NCBI GenBank assembly: GCA_018066285.1
Contig: JAGHRS010000002.1
Span: 124,001 to 188,000 of the forward strand
Length of the DNA: 64,000 nt
Source: Candidatus Treponema caballi
GTDB taxonomy: Bacteria > Spirochaetota > Spirochaetia > Treponematales > Treponemataceae
Direction: 5' to 3'
In this document: positions 8,597 to 13,193 of the stretch, piece by piece
Layout: every line of letters begins with the position of its first letter
Position numbering within the stretch: the first letter of the stretch is position 1
Translations under genes and position numbers: made by a program
The notes under the pieces: generated by a model
Seen by the model: the letters and a program-made list of their open reading frames with translations, nothing else
The model's database searches: none
What the model was told of the DNA's origin: nothing

Positions 8597-9261
8597 ATGT
8601 AATCATACTGAATGGCAGCCCCAAGCCCTCAGGCGGCAATTCTGCGTATCTCATTGAATGTCTTAAGCGCATGATGGAGCTCTCAAATCAGGACTTGCGC
8701 TTTACCATGCTCAATATCAGAAACAACATGATATCTGAGCCGGATTATCAGCTTTTTGAAAGCTGCGATGCTTTCGTCATTGCGTCTCCGGTATATTTTA
8801 ATGGACTTCCGTCTCATCTGCTTGAACAGCTGGTCCGCCTGGATGACTATTTCAACGGTCATAAAGGAATCAAATCACATGCGCGTGGCAGAATGAATGT
8901 CTATGGCCTCATGAATTGCGGCTATTTTGATGGGAACGGCTGCGCGCTTGCTCTTGAAATGATTGAGCAGTGGGCTGTTTGCTGCGGGTTAAACTATTCT
9001 GGCGGGTCTGGATTTGGCGGCGGTGAAATGCTTGGCATGATTACTGCAGTTCCTTTTGGAAAGGGCCCACTCAAGACTCCCGGAAAGGTGATGCAGAAAC
9101 TCAGTGATGCCATCGTGACAAAGACTGCATTCGAAAATGCATTTGCAACACCGGATTATCCGCGCTTCATATTCATGAACAACGCAAACATGCTGATGTG
9201 GGAAAAGCGCGCTAAAGAAAACGGAATCACTAAGAAGCAGCTGTACTACCGCATACCGTAA
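8593..9261 (+). CDS. NAD(P)H-dependent FMN reductase / flavodoxin-fold protein
   Basis: A 222-residue flavodoxin-fold protein opening with VIILNGSPKPSGGNSAYL, the phosphate loop of NADPH-dependent FMN reductases, followed by ASPVYFNGLPSHLLEQLVRL, the second flavin contact. The start is a GTG overlapping the previous stop (GTGA), preceded by AAGGGGG. Unlike its upstream partner it lacks the cysteine cluster. The pair probably arose by duplication and divergence. A redox role is clear from the fold; the substrate and the link to disaccharide phosphorolysis are not. Confidence 0.75.
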   Translation: MNVIILNGSPKPSGGNSAYLIECLKRMMELSNQDLRFTMLNIRNNMISEPDYQLFESCDAFVIASPVYFNGLPSHLLEQLVRLDDYFNGHKGIKSHARGRMNVYGLMNCGYFDGNGCALALEMIEQWAVCCGLNYSGGSGFGGGEMLGMITAVPFGKGPLKTPGKVMQKLSDAIVTKTAFENAFATPDYPRFIFMNNANMLMWEKRAKENGITKKQLYYRIP

Positions 9262-9288
9262 AAAAGGTTGGCAATGCCAACCTTTTTT
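9261..9288 (+). terminator. Rho-independent terminator of the GH94 operon
   Basis: Immediately after the stop codon, AAAAAGGTTGGC, a three-base loop (AAT) and GCCAACCTTTTTT form a 7-bp GC-containing stem extended by A/T pairs and ending in a T run. Confidence 0.85.
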
Positions 9289-9290
9289 AC

Positions 9291-9326
9291 TTTAGTTTTC
9301 AATTGCCAGGGCAATTGAAAACTAAA
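9291..9326 (+). repeat. Perfect 16-bp inverted repeat after the terminator
   Basis: TTTAGTTTTCAATTGC (9291-9306) and its exact reverse complement (9311-9326) surround the loop CAGG. No T run follows. It could be a backup transcription stop, an operator or an RNA-stabilising hairpin. Confidence 0.6.
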
Positions 9327-9388: not shown

Positions 9389-9706
9389 CAGCGAAATGTG
9401 GGGGAAAGCGCAGATTTCGCGGACACTCGAGGATGGGCGTTCCGCGAAAAAAGACAAAACCGCCGGTTTCGCTGTCAAAAATGAAAGCATTTAGCAGAAA
9501 AATGGGAATCGTTTCATGATGATTGGGGATGAATCGCAGAAAATGGGGTGTTTCGACAGCGAAAACAGTGAAATCGCATCATTTCGCTGTTTCGAAACTC
9601 CGCCCTCAAAAACAAAGTGACCGCGAAAACGTGAAAAAAACGAGTTTTCGCGGACGACGCTGATGGGACCTTCCGCGAAAAAAGCAATAAAAGCGGTTCT
9701 TCGCTG
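9389..9706. repeat. Intergenic locus of alternating GCGAAA/TTTCGC words with two ~60-bp degenerate direct repeats
   Basis: The gap 9327-9774 has no plausible gene. It is filled by about ten alternating sense and antisense copies of a short word (ACAGCGAAA, TTTCGCGGA, TCCGCGAAA, TTTCGCTGT), each able to pair with a neighbour. Two longer direct repeats, 9414-9475 and 9643-9706, share TTTCGCGGAC, GATGGG, TTCCGCGAAAAAAG and a CGGTT...GCTG tail. A minus-strand reading frame across it is judged a by-product of the repeats. Confidence 0.65.
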
Positions 9707-9774
9707 CATTTTGTAATAGCATTAATCTGGTCAGTTCTTATTTGGAAAGAAAAGGTGTGGTATACTGAGTGGGT

Positions 9775-9966
9775 ATGAAGAAAAGTGTATTAATTGTTCT
9801 GGTCCTTCTAATTTCTTTTTCTAATGCTTTTTCAAATATTCAAATCATTCAAGAAGGAAGTGGTAAAGCTAATGAATGGTGTGTCCTTAAGGGGGATTTT
9901 ACGACAGCGAATTATGGGTATCATCCTAATACAAAATTTCAATTACGGAGGTTAAAAACAAATTGA
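9775..9966 (+). CDS. Small secreted protein of unknown function, partner of the first YARHG gene
   Basis: A 63-residue product starting MKKSVLIVLVLLISFSNAFS, a clear signal peptide, followed by about 40 residues that I do not recognise and the ending FQLRRLKTN. TATACT lies 8 nt before the ATG, so it may be read from a leaderless message. An in-frame GTG two codons earlier is less likely. Its stop overlaps the next start as TTGA, so the two are coupled. A decayed frame with the same QLRRL tail precedes the second YARHG paralogue, so the pairing is probably functional. It could also be the remnant of a longer gene. Confidence 0.5.
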   Translation: MKKSVLIVLVLLISFSNAFSNIQIIQEGSGKANEWCVLKGDFTTANYGYHPNTKFQLRRLKTN

Positions 9967-11159
9967 AAAAGATTCTCTTTTCTGTTTTGTTCCTTTTTTC
10001 CAGTTTGCTTATTTTTGCTCAGCAGGTTGAATTACTTCTGAAAACAGATGAAGTGTATGAAAAGCCAAGACAAAAAGAATATTGTGAAAGCTGGTGGGGA
10101 CCATCTGGACTTTATGTAGATGAAGTGAAGGATGAAATAAACATCATAAATGCGATATTAAAAAAAAGATTTGGAATTCAAAACGGTAGCATATCAGAAG
10201 TTGAACAAATTACTGATTGTTTTAACGAAGTATATTACAAGTTTGGAGAATATAGTATTGGGGCATCAAGTAACTGTTCTTTGGTTATTAGAAAAGATGA
10301 TTCTAATATAGCTTCTGTAAAAACCGGAACAGGAATCAGTTTCATCTTAAAAAAAGATAATGGGTACATTGTTTACTATGTTGATCCGAATGGTTTACCA
10401 GGTGCAGTAGACACCGATGGCCAGTTTTACACTAATAATCAGGCTATGCAATTTTTAAAAAAATATGATTCTGAAAAATACCAGGAAAGTCTTTGCCGGG
10501 CAAATGAAATAGGATTACAGAAGCCTTTTTTGAATAATGAAGTGCTTATTTGGGGACAAACGTATTATTCAACAATTCATATGATAGAAAAACTCTGGAA
10601 GCCTGGGTCGTATTTATATCCTGGATATATTCAGGTTCAATATGATTTACAAGGTAATGGATATCAAATTAGATTTTCAAATAATAATTCAAAACTCGTA
10701 GCTGTATCACAAAATGGAAAATGGATTTTTGAACCTTTTCTTCTTGATTCTTATTCGATACAGTTATTATCCGAAGATTTTCCTTCTACACTCTGGTACG
10801 TCGGCTTCGGTGGCAACATCTACTACTACGTAGCCGGCTCAGACTATACCGAAGTCTTCCGCATCCGCCGCACCTGGGGCGAGCCCGACTTCTATGCGAT
10901 GGCCATCAACGGCTACACAGACGATGACTACGGCGCATACGTAAACGAAGTGCTCGCCGGGCTCAGCAAGGCAGACTTACGACTGTTACGGAACACGGTG
11001 TTCGCCCTGTACGGCTACCACTTCAACAGCGCAGACCTTGCTTCTTATTTTGACAGGCAGGTCTGGTACAATGATGAAGGCAGGACGACAGCCGACATCA
11101 CGCTGCCAGAACACCGTGCAAAGCTCGTCGAGATGATACAGGCATTGGAAGCGGAGTAA
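9963..11159 (+). CDS. Secreted YARHG-domain protein, paralogue 1
   Basis: A 398-residue protein with a TTG start overlapping the previous stop; GGAGG lies 11 nt upstream. A signal peptide (MKKILFSVLFLFSSLLIFAQ) leads to an AT-rich coded domain containing TGISFILKKDNGYIVYYVD and FLNNEVLIWGQTYYST. From about residue 280 the DNA becomes GC-rich and encodes VGFGGNIYYYVAG, FRIRRTWGEPDFYAMAINGY and a C-terminal YARHG-like domain (LSKADLRLLRNTVFALYGYHF...WYNDEGR). In that domain the signature reads FALYGY instead of YARHGY. YARHG domains are extracellular modules of unknown role. It is homologous throughout to the gene at 12003, but the last ~360 bp are nearly identical, far above the rest. Confidence 0.7.
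   Translation: MKKILFSVLFLFSSLLIFAQQVELLLKTDEVYEKPRQKEYCESWWGPSGLYVDEVKDEINIINAILKKRFGIQNGSISEVEQITDCFNEVYYKFGEYSIGASSNCSLVIRKDDSNIASVKTGTGISFILKKDNGYIVYYVDPNGLPGAVDTDGQFYTNNQAMQFLKKYDSEKYQESLCRANEIGLQKPFLNNEVLIWGQTYYSTIHMIEKLWKPGSYLYPGYIQVQYDLQGNGYQIRFSNNNSKLVAVSQNGKWIFEPFLLDSYSIQLLSEDFPSTLWYVGFGGNIYYYVAGSDYTEVFRIRRTWGEPDFYAMAINGYTDDDYGAYVNEVLAGLSKADLRLLRNTVFALYGYHFNSADLASYFDRQVWYNDEGRTTADITLPEHRAKLVEMIQALEAE
10797..11150 (+). repeat. Conserved 3' cassette, copy 1 (matches 12830-13184)
   Basis: By eye about 94% of bases match the second copy over ~355 bp, with differences mostly at third codon positions. The preceding 5' halves of the two genes are strongly diverged and AT-rich. The identity boundary coincides with a sharp rise in GC content. 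Confidence 0.8.
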
Positions 11160-11223
11160 GTAACTTGTTTTAATGTTGTTACCTACCTGAAAGAATGATA
11201 TAGTATTATCAAGGAGGAAGCCT

Positions 11224-11526
11224 ATGTATATTAAAGACGGTATATGTTATGCCAGCGAATTACAGCCATCAATAAAGGTTTCTTCTATAAAGGTTCTTGA
11301 AACCGGAATGATGCTTGTTACTTTTTCAACTGGAGAAACACGGCTTTTTGATGTTAATGCTCTCATAAAAACAGGTCCTGCATTTGCGAAACTATCTAAG
11401 TTAGAAAATCAGAAAACAGCAAAAGTCACTTATGGCTTTGTGTCCTGGCTTGATGGTGAAATTGATATTGCTCCAGAAACAATGTACCGTGAAAGTTATG
11501 AATATCCTGAGAACATAATTGCTTGA
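11224..11526 (+). CDS. DUF2442 domain-containing protein
   Basis: A 100-residue protein with the DUF2442 pattern: LETGMMLVTFSTGETRLFDVNALI, then VSWLDGEIDIAPETMYRESYEY. GGAGG sits 6 nt before the ATG. It overlaps the start region of the following DUF4160 gene, and these two families are very often adjacent in bacteria. They have been suspected of being a toxin-antitoxin-like pair, but their activity is not established as far as I know. The pair lies between the two YARHG paralogues. Confidence 0.8.
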   Translation: MYIKDGICYASELQPSIKVSSIKVLETGMMLVTFSTGETRLFDVNALIKTGPAFAKLSKLENQKTAKVTYGFVSWLDGEIDIAPETMYRESYEYPENIIA

Positions 11527-11540
11527 AAGGAGAGTCAAAA

Positions 11541-11804
11541 ATGCCTGAATTAAGCAGATTTGAGGGAATGGTTATATATATGCTGTTCCGTGACAATCAG
11601 GAACATAACAAACCGCATGTCCATGTCTATTATGGAGAATATGAAGCTTCCATTGGAATTGATGGGGAACTGCTATCAGGAAGACTGCCTCAGCGACAGA
11701 TGAAAATGATTGTCGGATGGCTTGCTCTTCATGAAGAAGAAGCGTATGCTGCGTGGAACCTTGCTGTTTCTGGTGAACACTTCCAAAAGATCGCTCCGAT
11801 GTAA
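11541..11804 (+). CDS. DUF4160 domain-containing protein
   Basis: An 87-residue protein with the DUF4160 signature: GMVIYMLFRDNQEHNKPHVHVYYGEYEASIGIDGELLSG, then LHEEEAYAAWNLAVSGE. GGAGAG lies 8 nt before the ATG. A TTG further upstream is also open but has no ribosome-binding site. Its likely partner is the DUF2442 protein just upstream, whose stop lies within 15 bp of this start. Function unknown; the pair is a candidate two-gene module of accessory DNA. Confidence 0.8.
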   Translation: MPELSRFEGMVIYMLFRDNQEHNKPHVHVYYGEYEASIGIDGELLSGRLPQRQMKMIVGWLALHEEEAYAAWNLAVSGEHFQKIAPM

Positions 11805-11998
11805 TCCAGAACCTGAACTATCCTGATGACACCATGCAGATAACGGATTACTCGCAGGTGGATGTGATACATAGTACTCCTGGAATAAACAACGTTGATG
11901 ACGTGGATTCTGTGTATAAAGTATTAACATCTTCTGCTTTTAATGTAAGTACGGAAATTAACCAATATCAATTAAGGCGACTTTCAATAAAGGAATAA
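11777..11998 (+). pseudogene. 3' relic of a gene like the small secreted protein at 9775
   Basis: A frame without a plausible start runs out of the 3' end of the DUF4160 gene and ends at TAA 11996-11998. It encodes DVIHSTPGINNVDDVDS and finishes NQYQLRRLSIKE. The small protein before the first YARHG gene finishes FQLRRLKTN in the same place relative to its neighbour. The 5' part, including any signal peptide, is missing. An ATG at 11834 is in frame but has no ribosome-binding site. I read it as the surviving tail of the second copy's partner gene. Confidence 0.5.
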
Positions 11999-12002
11999 AT
12001 AT

Positions 12003-13193
12003 ATGAAGAAAAGAGTGATTTTAAGTTTATCATTATTTTTAGTGTTATCCTTTAGTTATCCTCAAGTAATTGAAAGATTGGGAGAAACAGATTTAATAAC
12101 ATATTCTTCAAGCATTGTTACTTCATACCCTTCTGACACATATGTAGATGAAGTTAATGATGTGATTTATTGCAAGGCTTCAAAGCGATTAGAAACAGGA
12201 ATAATTGACTTCTCTAACGAAATTGAAGTTGCAATACTCGGAAAAGAAAATGCCAGAACAGCAACAAGTGCTTATTATAAAATAGGGGATTTTGCTATTC
12301 ATTATTCTGATATAGCTATTGAAATAATAAAAGATGATGTCGTTATTAAGAATTTGGCTATTTCTACCGGCATCAGTTTCATACTGAAGAAAGGGGGGGG
12401 GTACATAGTCTATTATGTAGATAAGAACGGAGTTCCTGGAGCAGTAGACACGGAAGGGGTAATATATACATCCGCAGAAGCCATGGAGTATCTGAAGGCG
12501 TATGACAGTGAGAAGTATGCCGAGAGTCTTGAGCGGGCAGAAGAGCTGGGATTGAAGACGCAGTTTCTGAACAATGAAGTGCTTGTGTGGGGAAAGACGT
12601 ATTATTCAACTACACAGATATTGGGAAAACAATATGAAAAAAACGATCCATATATCAGAAACGGATTAATACAATATGATCAGAATGGGTATGGATATCA
12701 GATGGCTTTTGATCCTGATAAAATTCTGTTTTGTGTAGTAAATCCTAATGGTTTAAATGAGATGGTTAAAGTCTTTACTGGTGCAGAATTATTACTTATT
12801 GTTTCAAGAGAGTATTCTTCCAGCTGGTATGTAGGCTTCGGCGGCAATATCTACTACTACGTAGCCGGTGAAGACTACACCGAAGTCTTCCGCATCAGGC
12901 GCACCTGGGGCGAGCCCGACTTCTACGCGATGGCCATCAACGGCTACACAGACGATGACTACGGCGCATACGTGAATGAAGTGCTCGCCGGGCTCAGCAA
13001 GGCAGACTTACGACTGTTACGGAACACAGTGTTTGCGCTGTACGGCTACCACTTCAACAGCGCAGACCTTGCTTCTTATTTTGACAGGCAGGTCTGGTAC
13101 AATGATGAAGGCAGGACGACAGCCGACATCACGCTGCCAGAGCACCGTGCCCGGCTTGTCGAGATGATACAGGAGAAGGAAGCGGAACTGTAG
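12003..13193 (+). CDS. Secreted YARHG-domain protein, paralogue 2
   Basis: A 396-residue protein with signal peptide MKKRVILSLSLFLVLSFSYPQ. AAGGA precedes the ATG. The N-terminal two thirds correspond to paralogue 1 only at protein level (TGISFILKKGGGYIVYYVD, FLNNEVLVWGKTYYST) and are AT-rich. Codons from about 277 onward are nearly identical in DNA to paralogue 1 and include the YARHG-like domain. A run of nine G at 12393 lies in the N-terminal half and could be prone to slippage. It is followed by a GC-rich hairpin region. Function unknown; exposure outside the cell is inferred from the signal peptide. Confidence 0.7.
   Translation: MKKRVILSLSLFLVLSFSYPQVIERLGETDLITYSSSIVTSYPSDTYVDEVNDVIYCKASKRLETGIIDFSNEIEVAILGKENARTATSAYYKIGDFAIHYSDIAIEIIKDDVVIKNLAISTGISFILKKGGGYIVYYVDKNGVPGAVDTEGVIYTSAEAMEYLKAYDSEKYAESLERAEELGLKTQFLNNEVLVWGKTYYSTTQILGKQYEKNDPYIRNGLIQYDQNGYGYQMAFDPDKILFCVVNPNGLNEMVKVFTGAELLLIVSREYSSSWYVGFGGNIYYYVAGEDYTEVFRIRRTWGEPDFYAMAINGYTDDDYGAYVNEVLAGLSKADLRLLRNTVFALYGYHFNSADLASYFDRQVWYNDEGRTTADITLPEHRARLVEMIQEKEAEL
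12830..13184 (+). repeat. Conserved 3' cassette, copy 2 (matches 10797-11150)
   Basis: Partner of the first cassette. Both encode the YARHG-like C-terminal domain. The pattern fits gene conversion or cassette exchange acting only on the 3' third of the two genes. Confidence 0.8.

Follow-up and report, generated by a model that had tools for sequence, protein, structure and literature searches.

The window analysed here is the whole 64,000-nucleotide stretch of Candidatus Treponema caballi (C5:124001-188000 of the 2.9 Mb source genome, G000). Within it, we studied two tandem paralogues, gene A (9963-11159) and gene B (12003-13193), both on the plus strand. Each gene starts with a signal peptide, recognised by eye as a hydrophobic leader, continues with a variable, AT-rich N-terminal part (the front), and ends in a constant 3' cassette of about 355-363 bp (the tail). 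The leader and front of gene A, the latter a putative recognition domain, occupy positions 9963-10793, and its tail, encoding the last beta-strand segment and a YARHG domain, occupies 10794-11159. The corresponding parts of gene B lie at 12003-12824 and 12825-13193, the tail again carrying YARHG. The Pfam profile of this domain (PF13308, cut-off 27 bits) matched the two tails with 62.4 and 61.2 bits, and no other match above the cut-off was found in G000. We consider it likely that A and B are orphan members of an immunity family that is paired elsewhere with an NlpC/P60-like effector, in a system resembling the polymorphic toxins.

Mosaic structure of genes A and B

The two proteins can be aligned throughout, with 60% identity overall; the fronts are 51% identical. 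In a DNA search of G000, the cassette was present twice and no more, and the copies matched at 93% over 359 bp, in agreement with the original prediction of a near-identical cassette (about 94%); neither a third full-length copy nor another N-terminus carrying the cassette was found in this genome. The border was also as sharp as predicted (at 10797 and 12830), since the maximum chi-squared method placed it at the W codon of WYVGFGG, position 10794 in A and 12825 in B, with a permutation p of 0.0005. Calculated on either side of this border, the synonymous divergence (dS) was 1.87 in the front and 0.23 in the tail, with nonsynonymous divergence (dN) of 0.65 and 0.03, respectively. Nucleotide identity per 20 codons ranged from 0.92 to 1.0 in the tail and from 0.37 to 0.78 in the front. 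The GC content at third codon positions (GC3) rises from 0.05-0.25 just upstream of the border to 0.6-0.95 downstream, and synonymous identity steps at the same place. Strong selection on the YARHG protein sequence alone would account for the very low dN of the tail; however, protein constraint cannot by itself explain the tail because dS is low there as well, and the relation between front and tail reverses between species (dS of 0.4-2.3 in tails joined to fronts with dS of 0.01-0.08). This explanation is thus extremely improbable.

Most long open reading frames (ORFs) of the window have a GC3 of 0.56-0.68, compared with 0.72 in both tails, 0.26 in the front of A, and 0.32 in that of B. Because the host values match the tail, we regard the GC-rich tail as host-like and the AT-rich front as the anomalous, mobile part; a foreign origin of the tail was rejected on the same ground. 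The original prediction had proposed a cassette exchange limited to the YARHG region. The sharp-bordered exchange stands, whereas its direction is inverted, with the tail serving as an arm and the front moving. Across 14 hosts with rpoB GC3 values from 0.26 to 0.63, the fronts stayed within 0.15-0.36. The GC3 of host rpoB was expected to follow that of the tail and not that of the front; both correlate weakly, which adds no support.

An old tandem duplication, after which the fronts simply diverged and the tails were held similar by gene conversion, would need no incoming fronts. Only two copies exist, they are in tandem, and their tails are each other's closest relatives; the approximately unbiased (AU) test likewise did not reject the N-termini of A and B as sisters (p 0.096). 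Nevertheless, a duplication sits poorly with two fronts that are both AT-rich in a host of much higher GC3, with the enzyme stump before each gene (weakly supported for A), which suggests two separate modules, and with fronts that demonstrably move between species elsewhere in the family. We judge it unlikely on balance, although it deserves some weight.

Movement of fronts between species

The survey covered 274 genomes of the window's own taxonomic family and an order-wide sample. The gene family was present in 27 of the 274 genomes and was not found outside this taxonomic family in the order-wide sample (5 of 92 genera sampled). The named carriers all belong to Treponema or Spirochaetaceae, chiefly Treponema bryantii B25. 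The comparison between species used 33 near-full-length genes, called partners below after those YARHG genes that lie beside an enzyme. The predicted pattern of a constant C-terminus and a variable N-terminus held across species. Pairs from the same genome had a mean identity of 55% in the front and 84% in the tail, and the pair in G254 reached 64% and 99%, respectively.

Five genomes (G070, G193, G093, G058, and G057) carry one front at 97-99% identity (dS 0.01-0.08), joined to tails that are 81-91% identical (dS 0.4-2.3). Their rpoB genes are 73-81% identical, except for the sister species G057 and G058 (98.6%). A shared front with a differing tail was found again between G058 and G002, which belong to different genera. 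In the sister species, dS was 0.55 in the tail, 0.06 in rpoB, and 0.04 in the front; the tail is more diverged than either of the others, and tails must therefore have been converted too. Assembly chimeras are argued against because G058 is a T. bryantii isolate and G057 is a two-contig assembly. The AU test rejected a single clade for the tails of the six-genome front group (p 4e-10) and was borderline for the five-genome group (p 0.055). The relatives examined did not diverge uniformly along their length, the pattern that had been named as fatal to the cassette idea.

Between G070 and G193, the front holds 10 differences, and divergence sets in properly at +35 nt. Over many pairs, the right breakpoints lie between -5 and +60 nt relative to the W codon, while the left breakpoint lies at the cleavage region or end of the signal peptide; T. 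bryantii and others have unrelated genes upstream. Site-specific exchange that uses the border as its recombination site, whether by an integron, a shufflon, or phage conversion, would fit the sharp borders, which recur at about the same position in many pairs, but the scatter of the breakpoints leaves no single fixed crossover site and the arms are themselves mosaic. In addition, two peptide patterns searched against viral contigs found no relative, which leaves phage carriage unsupported, and we regard site-specific exchange as very unlikely. A separate observation was made in G093, where a 58-aa orphan fragment of the YARHG cassette (L018 3587-3760), apparently a remnant of an earlier exchange, lies about 1.2 kb upstream of the intact gene.

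The partner enzyme and the exchange unit

Clustering of neighbouring ORFs recovered a recurrent protein of about 1,100 aa directly upstream of the YARHG gene in relatives. This protein, here called the enzyme, has a leader peptide (Sec-type, by eye) and a C-terminal domain (CTD) with DCSG, PGDI, and HVV motifs that are invariant in 10 sequences. From these motifs and weak profile scores, the CTD is predicted to be an NlpC/P60-like peptidase. For all 12 enzyme CTDs of the subtype (11 close ones and the divergent one of G030), the gene immediately downstream is a YARHG partner in the same orientation. As for the 33 partners, 20 have no detectable enzyme upstream, including that of G170, where too little upstream sequence is available, and 13 have enzyme sequence, which in two cases (gene B and one G107 copy) is only a stump. 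This excess of partners without an enzyme is the asymmetry expected of immunity genes.

In a second enzyme subtype, whose tail reads W.I.R, the gene that follows is a related, propeller-like one, which may or may not carry an SH3b tail. The SH3b genes are also mosaic, as same-genome pairs share 45-47% in the N-terminal part and 79-88% in SH3, and G193 and G093 share 74% and 98%. Modules that consist of the enzyme CTD alone stand in tandem next to other modules, an arrangement shared with polymorphic toxin loci. Neither a Pfam or NCBIfam family nor a known trafficking or pretoxin domain was found on the enzyme; PADLOC and NCBIfam gave no match for the enzyme, the partner, or the SH3b protein, and a PDB sequence search with the CTD profile returned nothing useful. 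A further NlpC/P60 domain was observed in a protein of about 2,000 aa (L163; G057:C1:1513018-1513248), whose end, ..EIRRLNFR, resembles the enzyme tails; this protein is possibly a third subtype.

Two loci of G057, a and b, delimit the unit of exchange. On the left, they share 3.9 kb at 90% identity, comprising the end of an upstream giant gene and the enzyme N-terminus, and on the right they share 351 bp at 96.9%, which is the end of the partner and corresponds to the cassette of the original prediction. Because the two loci differ between these shared arms, bar short weakly similar stretches, the exchange unit comprises the enzyme CTD and the partner front, with the 355-bp cassette as the right homology arm. 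In G145, a related CTD is attached to a different enzyme N-terminus. Taken together, G057 a/b and G145 show an enzyme with a constant N-terminus and an exchangeable C-terminal domain. The YARHG genes had been described as the reverse of polymorphic toxins; they appear rather to be the immunity half of such a system, since the classical layout, constant at the N-terminus and variable at the C-terminus, is found in the enzyme that precedes them in relatives, and the enzyme C-terminus is exchanged as one block with the partner N-terminus.

The two halves of the unit also co-vary. The distances between enzyme CTDs correlated with those between partner fronts (Mantel r 0.60, p 0.0002, n = 11 pairs), and the correlation persisted when the partner tail was controlled for (r 0.53, p 0.0004). 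CTD distances correlated better with the distances between fronts than with those between tails. In the sister species, the differences between the enzymes of G057a and G058 are concentrated in a single patch surrounding the catalytic Cys motif and extending beyond it, and those between their partners are concentrated in the last 90 or so aa of the front before the border.

Instead, the partner might serve a cell-wall enzyme of the producer itself, as its regulator, its chaperone, or a co-factor that targets it to the wall. The same operon order, the partner's own signal peptide, and a wall-associated YARHG or SH3b tail agree with such a role, which we nonetheless consider doubtful, as orphan partners are commoner than pairs and have stayed intact although the enzyme is missing, the rapid exchange of a specificity domain is not readily accounted for in a housekeeping enzyme, and the tandem CTD-only modules follow the style of polymorphic toxins.

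Remnants of the enzyme at the locus

Before gene B, a stump (11780-11998, plus strand; ..NLNYPDDTMQITDYSQVDVIHS...YQLRRLSIKE stop) remains from the 3' end of an NlpC/P60-like enzyme gene that has been lost; it ends 4 bp ahead of gene B. Its approximately 71 residues are 59% identical to residues 1062-1132 of the G057 enzyme (E 6e-18), and it matches the CTD profile with an E of 4e-16. This longer stump had been missed by the original prediction, which had noted only a small coupled secreted protein before gene A. The latter is a 65-aa ORF (9769-9966, plus strand) that runs 4 bp into the start of gene A. It reads as a signal peptide followed by a segment that resembles the last 35 or so residues of the enzyme CTD (tail ..FQLRRLK), with 11.2 bits against the CTD profile, a score equalled by none of 1659 shuffles and lying under the reporting threshold in a separate search. 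We therefore prefer to see this ORF as a signal peptide fused to what remains of the end of a lost enzyme, although the match is only suggestive.

Genes A and B are read as orphan immunity-like genes because a sequence search found no intact enzyme in G000 and because enzyme stumps precede each of them. On this sequence evidence, the window would hold a decayed locus with two orphans, each behind what is left of the 3' end of an enzyme gene (weakly supported for A). A diversifying surface or secretion system, as originally suggested for the whole locus, is unsupported for the window, as the genome lacks an intact enzyme and the locus is decayed.

Proposed mechanism and comparison with known systems

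In the effector-immunity explanation, the large Sec-exported effector would end in a peptidoglycan peptidase domain, and the partner would be periplasmic or secreted. The variable N-terminal domain, probably a beta-propeller although modelling supports this weakly, would bind and block the active site of the matching peptidase domain, as in Tse1/Tsi1, while the constant YARHG tail would hold the partner at the cell wall. New specificity would enter as one DNA block, consisting of the enzyme CTD and the partner front, through homologous recombination, with the conserved enzyme N-terminus as the left arm and the YARHG cassette of about 355 bp as the right arm. Partner-only exchange would also occur, with the signal-peptide region as the left arm. 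After loss of the enzyme, the partner would be retained as an orphan, with defence as the presumed selective reason.

Several results weigh against this explanation. The NLPC_P60 Pfam profile matched 4 of 10 enzyme CTDs, with a weak best E of 3.6e-5, and hhalign of the CTD against NlpC/P60 gave a P of 1e-4 and a probability of 57%, with the motifs in register. The structure model of the CTD, built from three sequences, was unusable, with a predicted local distance difference test score (pLDDT) of 28. The partner model was also poor, with a pLDDT of 59, and its top PDB matches were largely beta-propellers with a template modelling score of about 0.25. No delivery machinery was identified, the enzyme carrying just the Sec-type leader seen by eye. 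At the locus itself, the same direction is taken by the weakly supported stump before gene A, the missing intact enzyme, and the AU result for the A and B fronts.

Among the closest known systems is Tse1, an NlpC/P60 effector of the Tae1 family from the Pseudomonas aeruginosa type VI secretion system (T6SS), whose inhibitor, Tsi1, folds as a partial beta-propeller (PMC3391265). Compared by description, that system combines a peptidoglycan peptidase with a periplasmic inhibitor of partial propeller fold, as is predicted for the pair here; however, Tse1 is a small single-domain T6SS effector, whereas the enzyme here has about 1,100 aa and is putatively Sec-exported. To our knowledge, Tsi1 has no constant tail resembling an arm.

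In the EsaG/TipC immunity arrays of the Firmicutes type VII secretion system, paralogues recombine via homology blocks (PMC9484751). Conserved blocks (at both ends in TipC), a variable middle, and recombinational shuffling are common to both; the exchange there was shown among array paralogues and between strains, whereas here fronts cross species and the enzyme C-terminus can travel along. Orphan immunity genes are also retained in the Vibrio cholerae T6SS, where the effector is displaced and the old immunity genes stay downstream (PMC5361080). The growth of those arrays is attributed to a homologous left anchor with illegitimate joining opposite, in contrast to the right arm inside the immunity gene here.

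Polymorphic toxin systems include NlpC/P60 toxin domains (Zhang et al. 2012, PMC3482391). As here, they combine an N-terminus that stays constant with a toxin-like domain that varies at the C-terminus, and they have a partner gene alongside as well as orphan modules. The enzyme differs in that no known trafficking or pretoxin domain was found on it, and the term YARHG does not appear in the survey text searched. For YARHG itself (PF13308; structure 4g2a), peptidoglycan binding has been proposed (PMC3355149). The proteins of that report likewise carry a C-terminal YARHG on a secreted protein, but no toxin or immunity link is mentioned there.

The arguments appear evenly balanced for the more specific proposal of a spirochaete system in which the wall-binding tail doubles as the right arm, toxin and recognition domains cross species and genera as one in-frame cassette, and SH3b is a parallel second arm for the second toxin subtype. 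Toxin and recognition domain would stay linked because the right arm lies inside the immunity gene, where it doubles as the wall domain. Such a system would give a testable role to a YARHG protein family without known function and would explain the constant-tail, variable-front immunity gene as a device linking toxin and antidote specificity during exchange. If true, rumen-type Treponema possess a warfare system of their own that targets peptidoglycan and includes orphan immunity genes, and the same reasoning, applied to SH3b tails, may reveal more.

Additional features

Two passenger genes lie between A and B on the plus strand, encoding a DUF2442 protein (11224-11526; PF10387, 38.5 bits) and a DUF4160 protein (11523-11804; PF13711, 78.1 bits) that overlap by 4 bp. 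An ORF of the DUF4160 cluster also directly follows a YARHG gene in G209 (L080 3403-3660). In G057, an ORF of more than 4,700 codons with immunoglobulin-like repeats (L150 1-14139; G057:C1:1765000-1779138) lies directly upstream of the enzyme and may be part of a delivery system. In five genomes (L068, L069, L070, L073, and L054), a protein with AlbA_2/Schlafen and helix-turn-helix domains adjoins the SH3b/YARHG arrays. At 9258-9326 and 9435-9692, the window contains two perfect inverted repeats near the end of a flavodoxin-like gene and a TTCCGCGAAAAAAG direct repeat upstream of gene A.

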